Notes under the pieces: generated by a model
What the model was told of the DNA's origin: nothing
Seen by the model: only the letters and a program-made list of their open reading frames with translations
The model's database searches: none
In this document: one piece after another, positions 1,431-20,504 of the stretch
Position numbering within the stretch: the first letter of the stretch is position 1
Layout: every line of letters starts with the position of its first letter
DNA from: a virus
IMG/VR virus record: IMGVR_UViG_3300046794_000473
Coordinates: 1-21,294 of that record
DNA: 21,294 nucleotides
Strand: one strand, 5' to 3'
Made by a program: the position numbers and the translations under genes

Positions 1431-4400
1431 TTACATGCGGCCCATGCTGGCGCCGCCCAGGCCACCGGTGGCGGCGTGTGCAATACGCCTGTCCTCCAGA
1501 TCCTGACTGAGCATCATCGGCGCCTGTGGTGTCGCCGCGGGCTTGCCGCTACCGCCCCCTAGCATGGGCTTGGCCACCTGTGGGGTGCTGGGCAGCTTCA
1601 CCATGCTGGCATCAGCCGCTGGCGGCGCGTAGGTCGGCATCTTCACCGGCGGCAATGCGACTGGTGCCACGTTCGCCATTTGCATCGCGGCCGGGGCTAC
1701 GGTGGTGGCCTGGGCAGGTGCGGCAACGGTTGCCGGTGGTGTCGGCGCCATATTGGCCAGCGGCATCATCCCCAACGGCTGGCCCTTGGGCGCGGCCGGT
1801 GTGACGCCGGCAGTACCTGCGCCACCGGGCGTGCTCGCTGCACCTGGTGCCCCTGAAGCACCTGGTGCGCCTGATACCGTGCCGGGGCCGACACCTGGCG
1901 TGCCTGGTGAGCCTGGGGTACTTGGCCAGCCTGGAGCCTTCGCGGCACCCGGTACCGCGCTCGCTGGCGCCGCGCCTTTAACCGCGGCCATAGTGGTTGC
2001 GATCGCCCCCGTAGCAGCCGCCGGCGCCGCTACCTGCACCTGGTCCGCACGACGGGTAGGCGTCAGGTCGCCCGTCTTGGCTTGTGCCAGGTACCCATCA
2101 AACTTGCTGTTTACGTCGGCCAGCCCGTTGGTACCGCCGTTGATCCGTTTGCGAGCACCAGTCATGTCGCCCGCAGTGGCCAGCTTGTCGGCGCCGGAAC
2201 TCTTCCAGTTCGCCACCGCGATTTGTGCGGAGTACTTCGGATCAGCAGCAAGCTCTGGATTGTTCACCAGGTCAATGCCCAGCTTTTTGCCCATCTTTTC
2301 GTACTGATCGCGCCCCGTCAGCTGCGTGTCACCACGCCCCCGGAACTTGTAGCCGTCCCCTGGATCGACGTTCCCCATGCGCCCGCCATAAACCTTGTTG
2401 GCGATCGCCTCGGGGTTGTTGGCATCGACGCGGGCGCTATCGGCGTCCTTGTAGTACTTGGGGAAAACCTCCTGCAAGCGCTTGGCGCTGTAGTTCAGGT
2501 TCTCTTCGCTTTTGGTGAACCCGCCCGACTCGTGGTCCATGTTGGCCATCAGCGCGGCCTTCGATTTCGGGTCAGTGATGCCCCCGGCGTCCATGGCCTT
2601 GATCAGCTCGTCTTTGCGGGCGTTGGAGCCGCCTGTGTAGCGTCCACCGGTGACAGTGTTCAGTGCGTTCTGGCCAGCATCCTTAACCGACGTGGCTTTC
2701 TCGCCCACGTAGTCCTTAGCGCCCTGTACCTTGTCATCAACGGTGTCCTTGAACGCCATGACCTTTTCAGTGGCGCTTTTCCAGGTGTCCTTGGCCCAGT
2801 CCGTCATGGACGTAAAGGCGCTGGTACCGATGGTTACCAGGCTATTCCAGCCGTCCTTGACCGCGCCGAACGCATCGCTGGCCATCTGGCTGGCGCCGTC
2901 GGCAACGGTCTGCCAGGCGCCGGTAATGCTGGCCATCATCCCCGTCATATCGACGGTGCTGAGCCATTCCCCTACGGCGGTACCTAACTGGTCACCCAAC
3001 ATGCCGCCGGCAATCACGCCAGCAGGCCCGCCGACCATACCCAGGACGCCACCCAGCATGCCGCCGGCAATGCCGCCCATGCTGCCGTAGCGTTCGGTCT
3101 TGCTGGCCTGTTGCTCCTCGGGTGTCGCGTTCGGGTCATCCTTGGCCATGGCTGCGCTGGCGAACATTCCAGCACCAACCAGCGCACCAATTACTGGCAG
3201 CTTACGCAGCAGCCCCTTGGCGGCGCCCCCCACCGCGCCGCCCACGGATTTAACTTTACTGGCGGTCCCGCCCGCGGCCTTTGCTGCCGATTGGGCAGGC
3301 TCAGGTTTTGCGGTACCGGCCTTGCCCGATGCACCTGGAGCGGCTGTCTTGCTGGCGGCATCCTTGGGCCCTGGCGTTTTCCCACCTGGTGCTTCCGGAT
3401 GGCCAGCGCGGCTTGTTTTGGAGCTCGGCTCTACGGGAGCGCCCTTTCCACGGCGGCCGGTACCTTCCCTGGCATTGGCAGCGGCGGCACGACGATTTGG
3501 CGCATCGGCCCGGCCGCGCCCTCTCAATCCAGCGGCGCCCTTGAGCACCGATCCCAGGCCTGCCATGGCCCGCATCATGCCCGTCATCCGCGCCAGGGCT
3601 TTGATCGGCGCCAGTAACAGCCCCAGCATCGACGCCAGGCCCGCCAGCACCATCCCCATGCCGGAGCCGCCACCTTTCTCACCCTTCAGCGTGGTCCAGA
3701 TCCGACGGAACCACATAGCGTTAGAACGCCGACTCTTTTCCTCTGGCGTGGATCTGCGCATACCAAACAGCCCCGCCAGCGGCTTCACTGCGCCAATCAC
3801 CGGCGAAACGATGCCGCCCACCTCCTTGGCCGCCTGTACGGTTGGATCGATGTTGTCGGCGCTGGACGATAGGCCTTGCGCGGCGTTCTTGAGCGATTCC
3901 GAGGCGGCGCCCATTGCCTTCGATGTTTTCGATTCGCCGGCATCGGCCGGGCCAGCACCATCGGCGCCGAATCGGCCGTTGGTTTGGCGTGTACGCTCGG
4001 CACGCTCAGCCCTGGCCACGCCTTCGTCAGCGATCGCAGGTTTTACGGTGAGCGGTACCGCAGCTTTGAACTGGCCGTTTTCGCCACGGGCGCGGGGCTC
4101 GGCTGGAATGGCCTGGGTTAGCGTCATTGGTTTGGCCGACGCAGGCACTGGTGTAGCCGACGGGGGCCCAGGCACGGCCGGCGCAGACGTGGCCGGTGCC
4201 GGGGCTGGCATCACTGCCGTGGGCGTGGCCGGTGCGGGCGACATCAGCACCATAGCCTGGCTCGCGGATGCCTGTGGCACGCTTGGCGCCATTGGCATCA
4301 CCTGGCCAGTGCCAAGCTCCGGATCGCTGTCACTGATAATGACTGGCGCGGGAACGGGGCCGGTGGTGGTCACGTCAGCAGCAGGCGCGATCGGCGCGCT

Positions 4401-4694
4401 GACAGGTGCACCAGGTTCTACCGGAACAGCGTGTAGGGCCTGGGCCCTATCGGCGCGCTCCTGGTCACCGGCGGCGAGCGTTGGCGTACTGGCATCAGGG
4501 GGCGGCGCGAACGATTGGGCGCCCATTCCATCCGCAATACGCGATAGCAGGCTGATGCTTTCCTGGGTGTCGTCATGGATGGCGCGAAGAATGTCGATTT
4601 CGCGCCCGGCCTTGTCGATGTCGTCCTCAGTGCGGGGCCCCACCAGGAAGCCCGACTGGTCGTATTGATCCTGCTTTAGGATTTCGTCGGCCAT
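1431..4694 (-). CDS. Large virion-associated protein with GH19 peptidoglycan/chitin hydrolase domain
   Basis: A 1087-residue multidomain protein. Residues about 60-330 are Pro/Ala-rich and hold two RxxNG(Q/R)F motifs. A hydrophobic stretch lies near 345-375 (MGMVLAGLASMLGLLLAP), followed by a basic Lys/Pro/Gly-rich linker, and a glycine-zipper-like hydrophobic segment lies near 535-575 (repeated GGMLG). Residues about 695-875 form a GH19 domain with HESGGF (E722) and EENLNYS (E730/E731), where the family's catalytic acids lie, then GYKFRGRGDTQLTG and NNPELAADP. The tail from about 880 is low complexity with collagen-like Gly-Pro repeats. In phages such domains are usually endolysins or virion lysozymes that open peptidoglycan. 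The length, the membrane-like segments and the place after portal and protease suggest a structural or ejected protein, possibly a tape measure, rather than a free endolysin. The start lies 2 bases after the preceding stop and has no strong ribosome site. Confidence 0.85.
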   Translation of the reverse strand: MADEILKQDQYDQSGFLVGPRTEDDIDKAGREIDILRAIHDDTQESISLLSRIADGMGAQSFAPPPDASTPTLAAGDQERADRAQALHAVPVEPGAPVSAPIAPAADVTTTGPVPAPVIISDSDPELGTGQVMPMAPSVPQASASQAMVLMSPAPATPTAVMPAPAPATSAPAVPGPPSATPVPASAKPMTLTQAIPAEPRARGENGQFKAAVPLTVKPAIADEGVARAERAERTRQTNGRFGADGAGPADAGESKTSKAMGAASESLKNAAQGLSSSADNIDPTVQAAKEVGGIVSPVIGAVKPLAGLFGMRRSTPEEKSRRSNAMWFRRIWTTLKGEKGGGSGMGMVLAGLASMLGLLLAPIKALARMTGMMRAMAGLGSVLKGAAGLRGRGRADAPNRRAAAANAREGTGRRGKGAPVEPSSKTSRAGHPEAPGGKTPGPKDAASKTAAPGASGKAGTAKPEPAQSAAKAAGGTASKVKSVGGAVGGAAKGLLRKLPVIGALVGAGMFASAAMAKDDPNATPEEQQASKTERYGSMGGIAGGMLGGVLGMVGGPAGVIAGGMLGDQLGTAVGEWLSTVDMTGMMASITGAWQTVADGASQMASDAFGAVKDGWNSLVTIGTSAFTSMTDWAKDTWKSATEKVMAFKDTVDDKVQGAKDYVGEKATSVKDAGQNALNTVTGGRYTGGSNARKDELIKAMDAGGITDPKSKAALMANMDHESGGFTKSEENLNYSAKRLQEVFPKYYKDADSARVDANNPEAIANKVYGGRMGNVDPGDGYKFRGRGDTQLTGRDQYEKMGKKLGIDLVNNPELAADPKYSAQIAVANWKSSGADKLATAGDMTGARKRINGGTNGLADVNSKFDGYLAQAKTGDLTPTRRADQVQVAAPAAATGAIATTMAAVKGAAPASAVPGAAKAPGWPSTPGSPGTPGVGPGTVSGAPGASGAPGAASTPGGAGTAGVTPAAPKGQPLGMMPLANMAPTPPATVAAPAQATTVAPAAMQMANVAPVALPPVKMPTYAPPAADASMVKLPSTPQVAKPMLGGGSGKPAATPQAPMMLSQDLEDRRIAHAATGGLGGASMGRM

Positions 4695-14588: not shown

Positions 14589-16157
14589 TTACATGCCCGC
14601 AAAGGCTTCCTCACCGGCCTGAATGGCGGCGGCCTTGCGGTCGTAGTTGGCGCTCACCGCTTCACCAGCGGCTGGCACGTAGTCGGCGTCTTCGAGGTAC
14701 GCCATGGAAATGGTGTCGAAATAGTCAGGCGATGCCAGGCCTTCGGAGGCCATGTCTTGCTTGCGCGCCACCTGGTAGCGCCCCAGGCCGTCCAGGATGT
14801 AAGGCATCCGGCTGCCCTGGTCGAGCAAGTCGCGCTTGTACTTGGAAATGAAGCGAATAGCCCCGTCCTTGACCGCTTCGGCGGCGTGCACGGTGGCCTG
14901 GGCCCGCTGGTTGTAGAATCGCTGGCGGTAGGCGTTTTTGAACGTTGGTTTGCCCCATTGCACGCCTATGACGTTGGCGTTACCGGTCCCCAGCTCGATC
15001 AGGCGCTTGAGGAACTGTTCACCCATACCGCTGGCGTCGATGACGATCGTAGGGTTTGAGAGCGGCGCGCAGTACTCCAGCAGCTTGACCGCCACCGGGG
15101 TCCAGTCGAGGGTGTTGGTGTACACCGGGACATCGACGACCTCGATCCGCCGCCGGTTCTGCATCATCCGGTCACCGTGGCCAATGACGCGCATGTGGGT
15201 GGCCACCGTCTTGTCTCGGCCCACACCGGCCGACACGTCCACCACGATCATGTGGCCCCAGGCTTCGCTGTCCTGGATGACGCGCGGGCCTTCAATGACG
15301 CGCTCGATCGCTACAGAGCTGAGCAGGTATTTGCTGGAGTTGGTCGGGAACATGCCCCGGACCTTGATTTGATACTCCATTTCATCCCGCCCACCGTACT
15401 GCAGGATCTTGGAGGCAATGAACTCATCAGATACCAGCGGGCTCAGCTCGGAGCTGAATGTAAGGCTGGTCCACTCCCCGCCCTGGCGCTTGCTCAGGTT
15501 GTGGTGAGTGTCCCGGAAGAAACCGCTGTCACGGGTAGGCTGTGACGCCAGGACAAAGCGGTTGCGCTTATCCGTGAGTGCGCCACCGATAACGCCAAAG
15601 TTTTCGTCTGGAATACCTGACGCTTCGTCCCCCAGCCATAGCAGGTAGTCGCCGTGGGTACCGGCCAGGTTCTCAGGTGAGCCGCGTGGCGCTGTACGGG
15701 TAGTGACGTACCAGGTGGCCGAACGGGTGTGGATGTAGACCTTCTCGGCCTGGATGTTGAAGTACTCCGCAATCCAGGCGTGCGGCCCCTTCAGAATTTC
15801 AGTCTTGAGGTTGGTAATTTCCTTCCACACACCCTCTCGCACCGTCTTGAGCTTCGGTGCGGTGACGTAGGTGTTGGAGTTGCGATAGCACAGCAGGTGC
15901 CACAGGCAGATCACGCCGAACGAACGGGTTTTGCCGGTACCGTGGCCAGACGCGACGGACACACGGCAACCGAACTGCGACGTGGCGTCAAACAGTTGCT
16001 TTTGCTGGAAGGTGACGCCCTTCCCCGCCCCCATGCCGCACACTTCCACAGCGAAGCCGTACAGGTTGAAGGCGTACCGGGCGACGAACGCAGGCCAGCG
16101 AGGGTCTGCATCGATCGCCAGGCGTGGCGCCTTCTTGGTTGTTCCTGCTCTGGCCAT
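14589..16157 (-). CDS. terL: Terminase large subunit (ATPase and nuclease)
   Basis: 522 residues, usual for the family. The N-terminal ATPase domain shows a Walker A motif SGHGTGKT (G71 to T77), Walker B YLLWLGDEA (D177, E178), and an ASQPTRDSG coupling motif (about 204-212). The C-terminal RNase H-like nuclease has its acidic residues in VVDVS (D307), IVIDASG (D374) and PDYFDTISMA (D478/D481). The protein cuts concatemeric DNA and pumps it into the prohead through the portal. The start has GGGA about 4 bases upstream. It lies 66 bases after a gene encoding a degenerate copy of its own ATPase domain. All catalytic residues appear intact, so this is the working enzyme. Confidence 0.95.
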   Translation of the reverse strand: MARAGTTKKAPRLAIDADPRWPAFVARYAFNLYGFAVEVCGMGAGKGVTFQQKQLFDATSQFGCRVSVASGHGTGKTRSFGVICLWHLLCYRNSNTYVTAPKLKTVREGVWKEITNLKTEILKGPHAWIAEYFNIQAEKVYIHTRSATWYVTTRTAPRGSPENLAGTHGDYLLWLGDEASGIPDENFGVIGGALTDKRNRFVLASQPTRDSGFFRDTHHNLSKRQGGEWTSLTFSSELSPLVSDEFIASKILQYGGRDEMEYQIKVRGMFPTNSSKYLLSSVAIERVIEGPRVIQDSEAWGHMIVVDVSAGVGRDKTVATHMRVIGHGDRMMQNRRRIEVVDVPVYTNTLDWTPVAVKLLEYCAPLSNPTIVIDASGMGEQFLKRLIELGTGNANVIGVQWGKPTFKNAYRQRFYNQRAQATVHAAEAVKDGAIRFISKYKRDLLDQGSRMPYILDGLGRYQVARKQDMASEGLASPDYFDTISMAYLEDADYVPAAGEAVSANYDRKAAAIQAGEEAFAGM

Positions 16158-16223
16158 GCTTCCCTTACGCGCTTACCTGACCGATTTCCGGTCTATCCAC
16201 TCTACGGTCCCCTACGCCAGCGT

Positions 16224-16901
16224 TTAGGCGAGGGTTTGCGTGGTGCGGGCGTGTTCCAGGGTGAAGGCATCCCAGTGGGAGCTGTTGCGGGCGCGGTAAG
16301 CGAAACCTGTGAGCGCCAGGAAGTGGCTGAGCATGACCAGGCGTGTGTCGGTATTGCCGTAGCAGGCGCCACCCATCACCACAAAACAGTGATCCGGCAG
16401 CGCGTGGGCATCCTCCACCAACCACAGCAGATCCTTGTCCAAGTAGCCGGCCAGCACTTCAGGCGCGCCGGCTGTGATAAAGCGAATTCGCCAGTGGTGG
16501 GCGCCCATTACACGGATTTCATCAGGGCGAACGTCCAGCACGTCACACAGCCAGCCATAAGGCCCGTATGCGATCGTTTTGAGGAGCTTCTGGTACTGGT
16601 GCCGGCGACGTGCGCCACCTGGTGGCAATACGACGTTGGTGGCCGAACTGGGGCGGCAGAACAAGTGCCACAGCGCCACCGGGGCGAGTGGACTAATTGC
16701 CTGGTCATCGTCGTGCAAGTAGTCCAGGGCGCCTGTCATCGCCACACGGCAACCAGGTAACTCGGCCGCGGCATAGGCTTGCGCCATGTTCGGTGCCAGC
16801 TCCACGCCGCACACATCACGGGCGAACCCTCGCAGATCCTGGGCATAGCGCTGCATGAAGTCTGGCCACCGCGGGTTTTGGTAGAAGTGCACGTTATTCA
16901 T
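16224..16901 (-). CDS. Degenerate terminase ATPase-domain paralogue, no nuclease domain
   Basis: 225 residues from the ATG at 16901, with AGGGGAG 8 bases upstream; a GTG at 16910 is less likely. It aligns block by block with residues 19-237 of the neighbouring large terminase. PRWPDFMQRYA matches PRWPAFVARYA, GFARDVCG matches GFAVEVCG, and PGCRVA matches FGCRVS. VALWHLFC matches ICLWHLLC, GPYGWL matches GPHAWI, DLLWLVEDAHALPD matches YLLWLGDEASGIPD, and VVMGGA matches GVIGGA. The Walker A loop is replaced by GALDYLHDDDQ (no GKT), Walker B DE has become ED after a Val, and SQP has become SHF. The protein ends before the nuclease domain. The frame is intact with a good ribosome site, so it seems expressed. 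It may be an inactive regulator, scaffold or decoy of the terminase, or a decaying duplicate. Confidence 0.82.
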   Translation of the reverse strand: MNNVHFYQNPRWPDFMQRYAQDLRGFARDVCGVELAPNMAQAYAAAELPGCRVAMTGALDYLHDDDQAISPLAPVALWHLFCRPSSATNVVLPPGGARRRHQYQKLLKTIAYGPYGWLCDVLDVRPDEIRVMGAHHWRIRFITAGAPEVLAGYLDKDLLWLVEDAHALPDHCFVVMGGACYGNTDTRLVMLSHFLALTGFAYRARNSSHWDAFTLEHARTTQTLA

Positions 16902-17490
16902 CGGATGCACTCCCCTGGCTGGCGCGATCGGCGCGTGCGTCCAGGGCGGCCAGAATCAGCGCGCCGGCGACTGCCAGGGATTCTTCAGCAGGGCGGCGCT
17001 TGATCGGGTTGTCCCATGGCCAGAAGCGGTTAAAGGTCAGGTCAGAGTGCCCGGCCGCCTGCAGCGCATAGCAGGCCGCGGCGTGTTCCAGCTCGCACTT
17101 GCTGTATTGAGCATCCCACTCAGCGCTATAGCCTTCGGCCTGTTGCTGGCGCAGACGCTCCATAACCACCGTGATGGCCGACTTGGAGAGCGCCGGCACT
17201 GTGGCGAAGACTGGCAGCGGAAAACCCCACCCTTGCGCCGCGCGGCGGTCCCAGCCATGGCTACCAGGGCCTTGCGGGCGCGTGTAGCCAAAGGTCTGGA
17301 TCTTGTTGTGCCGGACTGACACCCACCCGATCGGCTTTTGATCATGGTGGGCGCCGGTGGCCATCAACCACACTTGGTACGTGGCATGGGTATGGCCATC
17401 GTAATAGCCGTCACCGTCGCGGGTCAGGTCAGTAAAGCCGGCCTGCAGGCAAGCGTGTTCGAAGTCGTCGCGGGTCAGGAAGCGGCTCAT
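16894..17490 (-). CDS. Unknown two-part phage protein
   Basis: 198 residues starting MSRFLTRDDFEHACLQAGFT. The N-terminal ~70 residues are a small alpha/beta unit with HATYQVWLMATGAHHD. The C-terminal part (about 120-190) resembles a module seen in many phage proteins of unknown role: ELEHAAACYALQAAGH, a WPWD motif, and LAVAGALILAALDARADR. The start overlaps the preceding stop as ATGA and the stop overlaps the next gene by 8 bases, so it is translated with the terminase paralogue. No enzymatic motif is visible. Confidence 0.7.
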   Translation of the reverse strand: MSRFLTRDDFEHACLQAGFTDLTRDGDGYYDGHTHATYQVWLMATGAHHDQKPIGWVSVRHNKIQTFGYTRPQGPGSHGWDRRAAQGWGFPLPVFATVPALSKSAITVVMERLRQQQAEGYSAEWDAQYSKCELEHAAACYALQAAGHSDLTFNRFWPWDNPIKRRPAEESLAVAGALILAALDARADRASQGSASDE

Positions 17491-17750: not shown

Positions 17751-17924
17751 TCAAGACATTTTTAGTTGAAGTTGCGCGCGGGCGCATTCCTGGGGGCCGT
17801 GTGGCAGAGCGCTGGTGCCCCGCTCACAGTTGCGGCGCTTACACTCGTTGCAGAATGTGTGGTGGCCATGGGTCTTGGTGTGCTTCCACACCACCTGGCC
17901 ACCGCCACAGAATCGACAGAGCAT
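17751..17924 (-). CDS. 57-residue CxxC zinc-ribbon-like protein
   Basis: A short frame of 57 residues with an ATG at 17924 and a TGA at 17751, filling the gap between two clear genes. Two pairs of cysteines, C3-x2-C6 (LCRFC) and C25-x2-C28 (FCNEC), flank a His-rich stretch (KHTKTHGHH), the layout of a small four-cysteine zinc ribbon. Further cysteines lie at 33 and 47. The ribosome site is weak. Such proteins usually bind nucleic acid or another protein; no specific role is visible. The regular spacing of cysteines and the tight fit between neighbours support it as a real gene. Confidence 0.7.
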   Translation of the reverse strand: MLCRFCGGGQVVWKHTKTHGHHTFCNECKRRNCERGTSALPHGPQECARAQLQLKMS

Positions 17925-17940
17925 GTATGTCCGATCCCTG

Positions 17941-18672
17941 TTAGTCCCCGGCCATGGTGGGACGGTGCTCTATCATCAAATCCGCGAATTTCCAGCAGCG
18001 ATCAGCAAAAGAGGCCATCGTTTCGCCTTCATTCATCACCAGGGGCGCGCGCAGGGCGAAGTCGTCGCGCAGGTCGCGCAGGTATTCGCGTTGGCGGGCA
18101 GACAGGGCCTTCTCTTGGCGATGGTCTGCGGTACGGATATCGATCACTTCTAGGATTCCGCTTTCATCGACGCGCGAAACGGACTCAATGCACAGGGATG
18201 GACCATTGGCCGGATCGATGCCCAGGAATGCACGGGCTTCCGGTTGCAGGCTGGCCAGGGTGGTTGCGTCCTTGGCGGCGATACGCTCGACCAGGGTGGA
18301 ATAGCTTATGCCTTGAGCGGTGGCCACTAGGGACGTGATTTTCTGCGCCTCGGTGGCGCCGGCCGGGAACTCAGGCAGCTCCTGGAACAAGGAGCGGCTG
18401 TTGCTCGACAGGATCGCCTTGCCGATCGGCGCCTTCAGGAAGTCCTCAACCACCGCGCGCAGGCTCACCGGAGTGGCCACCTGGTCGCGCTTGCCGCGCT
18501 GGATCGGCGCCCAGCCCGCGGTAGTGCGCACATGGAAGTACTGCCCGCCACGGCCTTCACGAGTCTGCACGTTCTGGCCGTCCAGGAAGGCGCGGAAGTC
18601 CAGGACGCGCTTGACTGGCAATAGACCTACATCGCAGGCGTTTTGAGGGACTGGCTGATTCAATGACTGCAT
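17941..18672 (-). CDS. Unknown protein of the packaging operon
   Basis: 243 residues from the ATG at 18672, chosen because AAGGAG lies 8 bases upstream; the open frame to 18813 lies inside the preceding gene. It has the N-terminus MQSLNQPVPQNACDVGLLPV, a beta-rich part (GRGGQYFHVRTTAGWAPIQR), then helical segments with basic and acidic patches (SARQREYLRDLRDDFALR). It overlaps the small HTH gene by 13 bases and is probably co-translated. No catalytic motif, membrane helix or known family recognised. Confidence 0.72.
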   Translation of the reverse strand: MQSLNQPVPQNACDVGLLPVKRVLDFRAFLDGQNVQTREGRGGQYFHVRTTAGWAPIQRGKRDQVATPVSLRAVVEDFLKAPIGKAILSSNSRSLFQELPEFPAGATEAQKITSLVATAQGISYSTLVERIAAKDATTLASLQPEARAFLGIDPANGPSLCIESVSRVDESGILEVIDIRTADHRQEKALSARQREYLRDLRDDFALRAPLVMNEGETMASFADRCWKFADLMIEHRPTMAGD

Positions 18673-18971
18673 GGGCGTGGCTCCTTGTTGGCTTGCGCCT
18701 GGTACGGGGTGAGGTTTTCCGGCTTGCCGGTATGGCGGGTTGTCTTCTTGTCGGATCTGAACACCAGGGGCGCTAGGAATAGCTGCCCGGTCTTGAACAG
18801 GAACAGCTCCCATAGGCCCACTTTCATGGTCACGGTGCCGTCTTCGTAGGTCTGCCAGGCGCGCTTGCTCACGTACACGGTGGACGCGGCGCGGGATTGA
18901 CTCAGGCCCGCCAGGTTGCGCGCCTGCTTGATGGCGGCGACGTTGGGGCTTTGGGGGCGAGTAGCGATCAT
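18660..18971 (-). CDS. Small helix-turn-helix (XRE-like) protein
   Basis: 103 residues from an ATG that overlaps the small-terminase stop as ATGA. Residues about 10-58 show an HTH pattern: AAIKQARNLAGLSQSRAAS, then VYVSKRAWQTYEDGTVTMK and WELFLFKTG. This variant is common in small proteins of phages and plasmids. The C-terminal part is basic and disordered (KKTTRHTGKPENLTPYQ). It may be a transcriptional regulator or a DNA-bending partner in packaging. The regulatory role is inferred. Confidence 0.72.
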   Translation of the reverse strand: MIATRPQSPNVAAIKQARNLAGLSQSRAASTVYVSKRAWQTYEDGTVTMKVGLWELFLFKTGQLFLAPLVFRSDKKTTRHTGKPENLTPYQAQANKEPRPCSH

Positions 18972-20050
18972 TGCGGGTTACCTTCAGCTAGCCGGCGTTC
19001 ACGCTCTTGCATGGCTTCGAGCTCGTTATTCGTCTTGGCTTCAGCCTCGGCGTAGATAGCGTTCAAGGCCTCATCACTCACGCCGATGATTACCTTCACT
19101 TCCGGCTCAACCTTCAGGTCGAAGATGCTGGCCAGCATTTCCAGGTAGCCTTTTTTGCTGGCCACCTTCACCTCTGTGCCGTCCTTGCCTTCCTTCACGC
19201 CTTCGTACAGCACGACGGCGCCGGGGCTCAGGTTGGCGGTGTCCTTGAATCGCGGGCGGCCGATCCCCTCGCCAAAGCAGTTGGTGCAGGCATCGACAGG
19301 GGCCAGCGTGGGGTTGAAGCCGGTACCGCCCAAGGTGTCCATGGGCAGCAGCACTTTGTTATCTGCGTCCGCCTGGGCCTTGAGCTGAGCGTATTCGGCC
19401 TCACGCTCAAGCATTTCGTGCTTCTTGAACTGGTACAGGTGATCAACGCCGTAGCAGTAGCGGCAGCACCGGCGGTTGTACTCGACCAATTCGCGCACGT
19501 CGGCCAGGGCAGCTGATCGGATCTGCTCGATGACTTCGTTTTGAATGTCGGCGGTGCGCTTGAACAGTTCGGCCTGGCGCCACTTCGTATAGGGGTGATT
19601 CTTAACCTTCTTTAGCAACTTGCTGGCGCCCACGGCGGCCACGTTGTCGTTCTTGCATTTGTAGCCGGCATCGCGGTACGCCTGACCAGCGTTTTGGCTC
19701 ACTACCCATAGGTCGATGAACTTCTGCTGGCGCCGGTCCAAACCGTGGGAATCCGCTATGCGCAAGGCTTCCAGCTCAAATTCACTGAGCGCGATCGGGT
19801 TAACAATCTTGGTGTTGCCCTCTTTCGCTGGGGATCGAGGGGTACGGCCAGCCGCGGGCTTCTTGGCGGCTGGCGTGGAAGTCTTTGCCGCGGGTTTTGC
19901 GGTCCTTCGAGCCTTGCTAACTGGCGGCTTTTCCTGATCACCCTTAGCAACGCGCGGTGCACGGGGCTTAGCAACCGGCTTACTACCCACTGCCGGGGAC
20001 TGTTGGTCCTCAGACAAGGACGGGGTTTTAAGCGGTGTCTTGCGGGCCAT
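18968..20050 (-). CDS. terS: Terminase small subunit with basic tail and four-cysteine motif
   Basis: 360 residues from the second of two tandem ATGs (20050), which has AGAGG 7 bases upstream. The longer frame to 20191 would translate through a terminator and is rejected. Residues 1-80 form a Lys/Pro/Ala-rich histone-like tail (SKARRTAKPAAKTSTPAAKK). Residues about 90-160 match the Terminase_2 type: LDRRQQKFIDLWVVSQNAGQ then AYRDAGYK and the DNA-binding helices. A zinc-type motif follows, C196-x2-C199 (CRYCYG) and C255-x2-C258 (CTNCFG), as in some phage small terminases. The C-terminal part is helical. The protein recognises the packaging site and recruits TerL. It is the first gene after the non-coding block and presumably binds there. 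Confidence 0.85.
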   Translation of the reverse strand: MARKTPLKTPSLSEDQQSPAVGSKPVAKPRAPRVAKGDQEKPPVSKARRTAKPAAKTSTPAAKKPAAGRTPRSPAKEGNTKIVNPIALSEFELEALRIADSHGLDRRQQKFIDLWVVSQNAGQAYRDAGYKCKNDNVAAVGASKLLKKVKNHPYTKWRQAELFKRTADIQNEVIEQIRSAALADVRELVEYNRRCCRYCYGVDHLYQFKKHEMLEREAEYAQLKAQADADNKVLLPMDTLGGTGFNPTLAPVDACTNCFGEGIGRPRFKDTANLSPGAVVLYEGVKEGKDGTEVKVASKKGYLEMLASIFDLKVEPEVKVIIGVSDEALNAIYAEAEAKTNNELEAMQERERRLAEGNPQ

Positions 20051-20091
20051 CATGCAACCTCTTAGCGCAATATTTTCGTTATCAACCGTGG

Positions 20092-20117
20092 CCAGGCGGC
20101 CAACTTCTTGCGCCTGG
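20092..20117. repeat. Inverted repeat upstream of terS
   Basis: CCAGGCG (20092-20098) and CGCCTGG (20111-20117) form a perfect 7-bp inverted repeat with a 12-base spacer, between the terminator at 20.14 kb and the terS start. A weak promoter (TTGGCC, 16 bases, TAACGA) overlaps its left side. It may be an operator or a terminase-binding element. Confidence 0.4.
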
Positions 20118-20126
20118 GGCACAGCT

Positions 20127-20152
20127 ATAAAAAAGCCCGCACGCGCGGGCCT
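20127..20152 (-). terminator. Intrinsic terminator upstream of terS
   Basis: GCCCGC (20135-20140) and GCGGGC (20145-20150) with a 4-base loop, followed on the minus strand by TTTTTTATAG. It lies about 80 bases before the terS start, so it would end leftward transcripts from the non-coding block and isolate terS under its own promoter. Confidence 0.85.
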
Positions 20153-20155
20153 CTC

Positions 20156-20504
20156 TATTTGGGTGTTGAGCACTGGTATGCCCCCCGCCACTCCCAGCTA
20201 TTCGGACACGCTGCTGGTGCAGCGTTACAAAGGCAGGCATGCCTCGTCCTACAGTTATCCGTGCCACCGGTGTTGTTCAATGCCCCGTCTCAGGACACCA
20301 GCCAAAGGGTCTGTACAGCCCCCTCCGACCACCATGGCGATCGACTGCTAGCAAACCCGTAGGTGGGCCAGTCCGTCCCTCAGTTACGTCACACACAATT
20401 GAAATGCGGCAGGTAACGCGCTTAGGCGCTGGTCAACCCACGTCACTGGCGCCTTTTCGGGGGAGGAGCAACCCCCGCCAGTCTTGCCTTCCTTTCGGCC
20501 CACC
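20156..20504. other. Non-coding block between two leftward terminators, candidate cos/pac site or small RNA
   Basis: About 350 bases with no convincing gene on either strand and no tRNA pattern that I could see. It contains an inverted repeat ACGCTGC/GCAGCGT with a 4-base loop (20208-20225), the palindrome AGGCATGCCT (20235-20244), and a GC-rich stem GGGGG/CCCCC near 20459-20476. It is bounded by leftward terminators on both sides and lies directly upstream of terS, where many phages keep the packaging-initiation site. No strong sigma70 promoter is visible inside it. Confidence 0.45.

Follow-up and report, generated by a model that had tools for sequence, protein, structure and literature searches.

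In phage P1, CRISPRi experiments found pacA and pacB to be essential and isaA and isaB to be nonessential (PMC10695390), and the isaA/isaB region is variable among P1-like elements (PMC9603915, PMC6906374). Terminase, one of the most conserved phage proteins, is also known to set off innate immunity in bacteria. The terminase sensors among the Avs proteins are Avs1–3. The introduction of one paper on these STAND-type defences has Avs1–4 recognising the large terminase (TerL) or the portal and TerL as a known Avs trigger, and mentions no dummy terminase made by phages (PMC12931631). In the phi29 motor, a dead terminase domain is kept for DNA binding (PMC7672431). Searches of the open-access literature turned up no account of any dead paralogue of terminase.

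Here we analyse such a gene, pA, in a 21,294-nucleotide stretch of DNA from a Pseudomonas virus (the window), which is itself a 21-kb fragment; many of its relatives are metagenomic contigs. The pA product shares with P1 PacB and its relatives (phrog_2) homology over the ATPase half, the predicted fold and its position as a neighbour gene, but it is a stand-alone protein of 225 aa without Walker A, the catalytic acids, the coupling motif or the nuclease domain. Like the vestigial C-terminal nuclease of phi29 gp16, it is terminase-derived, has lost catalysis and has been kept (PMC7672431); however, the dead phi29 domain is a nuclease half within an active motor chain, whereas pA is a separate ATPase-half protein and TerL is complete. 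The PHROG 5902 proteins of enterobacterial P1-like phages resemble pA: they are dead paralogues of the TerL ATPase half that occur in addition to the real TerL, their gene is coupled to a small one upstream, and they are optional. They differ in their separate origin, their distance from pacB, a residual Walker A-like GIG loop, an extra C-terminal domain and a length of ∼364 aa.

The pA gene and its neighbours

The features of the packaging region in the window are as follows.

18968 to 20191, minus strand: TerS (family match, PF03592, phrog_51)
17941 to 18672, minus strand: Q, a TerS-adjacent protein, in the window a copy without nuclease insert (profile and locus comparison)
16894 to 17490, minus strand: F5, the gene upstream of pA, similar in its C-terminal half to several PHROGs of unknown function
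16910 to 16915, minus strand: ribosome site GGGGAG, 8 nt 5′ of the pA ATG
16224 to 16901, minus strand: pA, a catalytically dead paralogue of the TerL ATPase domain (protein P0003; BLASTP, AF2/Foldseek, 13 orthologues)
16158 to 16223, minus strand: terL leader, which separates pA from terL and contains a hairpin and the conserved (C)GTAGAGTGG box (alignment of 17 loci)
14589 to 16157, minus strand: TerL, a P1 PacB-like large terminase of 522 aa with intact catalytic motifs (BLASTP)

The window TerL is 36–38% identical to PacB of P1 relatives and 67–73% identical to that of three Pseudomonas phage-plasmids. The pA frame is open, encoding 225 aa plus stop, and BLASTP aligns its product to residues 18–234 of TerL (E 6e-27; of 223 columns, 31% are identical and 48% positive). 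Given these E-values and the 13 orthologues in other phages, chance likeness is excluded. The initial annotation, made from the letters of the window, had proposed a dead ATPase-domain paralogue adjoining terL, and homology, predicted fold and motif losses all confirm it. It had also described a strong ribosome site and coupled neighbours. The first part stands, as does coupling to F5, whose end overlaps the start of pA by 8 nt (ATGAATAA). Translational coupling is confined to this upstream side, however, since pA and terL lie 66 nt apart, and the hairpin between them is seen again throughout the clade.

Searches with P0003 found no close relative in phage GenBank records or in a single-sequence viral scan, and nothing useful came from Pfam, NCBIfam, PADLOC or PDB sequence searches.

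Several smaller observations concern the same region. In relatives, too, the terL leader has a conserved (C)GTAGAGTG box and a hairpin, a possible promoter or regulator site; some of these leaders have a T run and resemble a terminator. TerS may truly start downstream of its annotated GTG. A Cys/His-rich ORF of 57 aa (17751–17924, minus strand; family F6) is conserved in the clade loci. Elsewhere in the window, positions 1431–4694 (minus strand) encode a structural-type protein of 1087 aa, inside which lies an endolysin/chitinase-like domain (phrog_181, PF00182).

Catalytic residues and predicted fold

Three segments of pA stand out when it is aligned with TerL.

16818 to 16871, minus strand: best-conserved segment, N-terminal RWPDFMQRYAQDLRGFAR; R11, W12, F15, R18, Y19 and F26 present in 12/12
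16701 to 16733, minus strand: GALDYLHDDDQ (P0003 residues 57–67), the degenerate Walker A region, opposite SGHGTGKT in the alignment to TerL
16407 to 16421, minus strand: LVEDA (P0003 residues 161–165) where TerL has LGDEA, a change in the Walker B acids (alignment of 12 pA)

Residue losses were counted in the 12 full-length orthologues aligned. None keeps the Walker A Lys and Thr, so that the pattern GxxGxGK[ST] is absent throughout. The Walker B Asp, TerL D177, has become Glu in all 12, and the catalytic E178 has become D, A or G in 11. The coupling motif SQPTR reads SHFLA in pA, the coupling Gln being kept in 0/12, and pA ends before the C-terminal RNase H-like nuclease domain with its three Asp. 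The changes to Walker A, Walker B and SQP and the missing nuclease domain, all reported beforehand from the window alone, are therefore real in the alignment. We also considered whether pA might donate an arginine finger to a mixed ring. This is unsupported: none of the pA proteins retains R158 of TerL, a candidate trans arginine, nor is R107 conserved, and which Arg serves as the finger in this family is a guess.

What has been kept is unevenly distributed. Mean identity of the 12 pA proteins to their own TerL is 52% in the N-terminal segment (TerL 18–45), 41% in the PENLAG loop and 14–32% elsewhere, and the residues kept are mostly ones common to TerL. AlphaFold2 modelling of pA with 12 orthologues gave a pLDDT of 85.3 and a pTM of 0.86. 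Foldseek against the PDB placed TerL ATPase domains first (P74-26 4znl, E 3.8e-6; T4 gp17, TM 0.65; HK97, Sf6 and D6E) and general RecA-like ATPases after them, as expected for the fold, and most of the named best matches among predicted viral proteins were large terminases. We thus predict with good confidence that pA has a terminase ATPase (ASCE) fold, as the initial annotation had supposed.

Judged from its sequence, pA is a terminase pseudoenzyme: its catalytic residues are gone, but the fold remains and so does some of the surface of TerL, chiefly in the N-terminal segment and the PENLAG loop. It would lack what is needed for normal ATP binding, hydrolysis or DNA cutting and, being without catalysis, must, we infer, work by binding. 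Since P22 TerL binds TerS through its first 23 residues (PMC9611059), it is plausible that pA retains an N-terminal protein-binding surface.

One partner for such a surface would lie within the packaging machinery itself. Through its N-terminal segment pA might compete with TerL for TerS, or join TerL transiently, and so adjust pac cleavage, the headful series or the start of the motor while itself remaining dispensable, by analogy with the C-terminal domain of phi29 gp16. The similarity of this segment to TerL over the region that binds TerS in P22 argues for such a regulator of packaging, as does the precedent of a dead nuclease domain in a motor (PMC7672431). Overall, we consider it less likely than not, and the second most likely of the readings.

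Selection and distribution in the Pseudomonas phage-plasmid clade

In close pairs of phages the dN/dS of pA is 0.11–0.31, with bootstrap upper limits of at most 0.50, compared with 0.04–0.09 for TerL in the same pairs, and the dN of pA is ∼2–8 times that of TerL between the same phages. No copy of pA has an internal stop over its available length, whilst under neutrality a stop-free frame would be rare at the divergence of pA (0.3% at d = 0.4). Thus pA is under clear purifying selection though it evolves faster than TerL, and the earlier view that its intact frame is maintained rather than decaying holds good across the orthologues.

For its distribution, we compared nine bacterial-genome and 70 viral loci obtained via TerL alignment, together with plasmid records and one further viral clade locus. 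In profile searches pA was found between F5 and terL only in a Pseudomonas phage-plasmid clade, where TerL is at least ∼65% identical to that of the window. It is present, always at this place, in 14 of the 20 assessable distinct loci (the window, L024, L026, L034, L035, L005, L006, L008, L009, L015, L038, L041, L064 and L145; the L024 copy is cut by the contig end). In four others (L027, L037, L028 and L011) the terL leader follows F5 immediately, and F5 ends in codons that resemble those at the end of pA, which points to a deletion of pA. In L004 and L007 the C-terminal tail of pA alone remains, as an ORF of 54 aa. This ORF (L004:7772–7936 and L007:7772–7936) corresponds to the tail beginning FIELVAGKPLTP, the ATPase domain being gone. 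The element is rare in the sample of ∼400 Pseudomonas genomes that we scanned.

In the tree the pA sequences form one clade whose branching order is close to that of TerL, L041 fitting less well, and for this reason we read the six loci with absent or cut-down pA as losses. The TerL of L027, which has no pA, is 97.5% identical to the TerL proteins of L026 and L034, which both carry it, so TerL function does not require pA. The gene is therefore maintained but optional, and essential membership of the motor ring is disfavoured; the initial annotation had put it forward as one candidate role, beside those of a cap, an occupant of the portal and a decoy. Frequent frameshifts or absence together with relaxed selection had been named at the outset as telling against a maintained pseudo-ATPase: the absence is real, at 6/20 assessable loci, but selection is not relaxed where pA is present.

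These results bear on three explanations. That pA is merely the relic of an old terL duplication on its way to being lost would account for the several losses, the tail-only remnants in L004 and L007 and the faster evolution, but we find it hardly credible: all copies are intact over their available length, dN/dS is significantly below 1, the fold is confidently predicted, and a single origin was followed by long retention. A regulator of packaging is favoured by the invariable position of pA directly upstream of terL in the TerS-to-TerL block, coupled to F5, and by a pA tree that broadly mirrors the TerL tree; it fits poorly with the loss or truncation of pA in six of 20 assessable relatives, one of them with a near-identical TerL. 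Finally, the relatives are phage-plasmids and therefore probably temperate, and a dead motor half could act dominant-negatively, so that pA made from a prophage-plasmid might bring about superinfection exclusion by poisoning or starving the terminase of related phages as they enter. We regard this as very improbable, as the pA gene lies among the packaging genes of the phage that makes it and would harm that phage's own motor, and a separate lysogenic promoter was not identified.

Nuclease-half paralogues of the same phages

Phages of the clade also carry dead paralogues of the nuclease half of TerL, situated downstream of terL, inside Q, or fused to small phage proteins.

L009:1399–2694, L015:4177–5457, L038:4163–5458, L041:4148–5440 and L064:4158–5444: dead TerL nuclease domain in the Q linker
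L004:9567–10454, L005:9605–10324 and L007:9601–10485: nuclease-domain paralogue directly downstream of terL
L134:1059–2330 (minus strand), L135 ORF about 1109–2452 and L006:672–1733: fused nuclease domains elsewhere in the genomes

The Q-linker domain is absent from the window and from L145, and a more degenerate nuclease paralogue, F33, occurs downstream. L134 belongs to the phage of L028, and L135 to the more distant plasmid of L012; of the three fusions L134, L135 and L006, two have partners like phrog_9165/phrog_27241 or phrog_292. All of the nuclease-domain paralogues examined have V, R or L in place of D307, the first catalytic Asp. Structure prediction for the nuclease paralogue was weak (pLDDT 55), with the Sf6 terminase nuclease as best match. 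The copies inserted in Q and those downstream fall into two separate clades in the tree, which does not exclude a single one, and the dead state of the nuclease half has possibly arisen at least twice.

Dead nuclease domains in at least five contexts are unlike one regulatory subunit, which weakens the case for packaging control. Their fusion to unrelated small proteins would fit some other use of the fold, for example as a scaffold binding DNA or another phage protein, unconnected to the partners of TerL. The enterobacterial family described below, in which an unrelated C-terminal domain has taken the place of the nuclease, would also agree with this, but the residues that pA retains are mostly those common to TerL, and we judge such a use to be improbable.

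An enterobacterial counterpart

The initial annotation was right about the dead gene itself, but its single-gene picture missed both the other dead pieces in the clade and an independent family in enterobacterial P1-like phages. The latter, PHROG 5902, is a dead PacB paralogue of 364 aa with 35% identity to PacB (E 4e-53). The PHROG is labelled ‘unknown function’, its members being otherwise annotated as terminase large subunit or hypothetical; an example is the following.

MH422554 (Punavirus), 16006–17100 (= L153:3998–5092): PHROG 5902 protein, annotated ‘terminase large subunit’, with PacB encoded elsewhere

In this family the Walker A GTGKS has become GIGET, GIGRP or GIGQK and the Walker B DE has become NS, DS or EA. 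Where the nuclease domain would be, the C terminus has an unrelated domain of ∼90 residues, similar to phrog_17928. PHROG 5902 is the best family match of P0003 (E 3.2e-9, residues 5–202), although this match is not diagnostic on its own, because TerL also matches the profile (3.5e-73). The tree places the PHROG 5902 proteins inside the PacB group of gammaproteobacteria and away from pA, and a joint clade of the two was rejected (AU p 0.004), with long branches present. For the ATPase half, this gives at least two separate origins of the dead state.

The PHROG 5902 gene is coupled to an isaA-like gene (phrog_2326), far from pacB. Neither this partner nor the C-terminal domain of ∼90 residues has an equivalent in pA, which ends after its ATPase half; F5 was considered as an isaA homologue but has no similarity to isaA. 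At the corresponding place phage P1 has isaA-IS1-isaB, and laboratory P1 is without the PHROG 5902 gene; since the reference P1 has IS1-isaB there, the protein may have been overlooked. In PLSDB, 120 records match it at 80% identity or more, and among 5,426 complete E. coli genomes the gene occurs in 100 and a P1-like pacB in 599.

In MH422554 and P1 the hxr-ddrB-ddrA-darA genes (antirestriction ddr/dar) follow. In three other plasmids, the next gene upstream of the isaA-like gene encodes a Tad2-like anti-defence domain (by annotation, with a profile match in two), giving a cassette found at varying places in enterobacterial phage-plasmids.

L157:2557–5077, L158:2464–5065 and L159:2512–4996: Tad2-like gene, isaA-like gene and dead PacB paralogue

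Tad2 binds a small molecule. The Tad2-like proteins (PF11195) are neighbours of the cassette with an unrelated fold, and anti-defence by sequestration is an analogy. The place of the PHROG 5902 gene in an accessory region, far from pacB, is a further point against a regulator of packaging.

Possible role of pA

The reading that we tentatively prefer is that pA is a putative bait for antagonists that bind TerL. It would bind a TerL-recognising protein without being a productive motor subunit, and would thereby shield the real TerL encoded by the adjacent gene. Candidate targets are an Avs/STAND-type immune sensor of the host and a terminase inhibitor or hijacker from a satellite or rival prophage. 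We consider bait the most likely of the readings, because the dummies of the ATPase and nuclease halves are optional, fast-evolving and combinatorially scattered; it is also favoured by their recurrence and by the accessory-region neighbours (Tad2-like, ddr/dar) of the enterobacterial counterpart. That related viruses keep such pieces, and that the P1 family evolved one independently, suggests that a dummy is kept for a purpose.

Several points count against bait. In the Pseudomonas clade pA is always in the packaging operon, which would fit a packaging role too, and the best-kept segment is N-terminal, as is the TerS-binding part in P22, which favours an internal partner. The anti-defence neighbourhood is an association only, and laboratory P1 does without the gene. 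In addition, Avs3 contacts the active sites of TerL, and it is precisely these that the dummies lack.

A broader possibility, on which we are more hesitant, is that P1-type phages have repeatedly and independently evolved dead copies of both terminase halves as anti-immune bait, a mimicry in which a harmless TerL antigen would be displayed to innate immune sensors or satellite inhibitors. The recurrence of dead terminase halves under selection points either to an unrecognised form of counter-defence or to an unrecognised layer of non-catalytic packaging control.

Insertions in TerL of relatives

Match spans of ∼2.3 kb to TerL were considered as inteins, but they mostly reflect pA upstream or a nuclease-domain paralogue downstream, and insertions in Walker A account for some only. 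A TerL with an insertion in the Walker A loop is encoded at L011:4203–6497, L035:7001–9295 and L037:6983–9295, and also in L016, L042, L062, L085 and L090. The insertion in L011 is annotated as a Hint-domain homing endonuclease, that is, an intein, and the others are presumed to be inteins as well.
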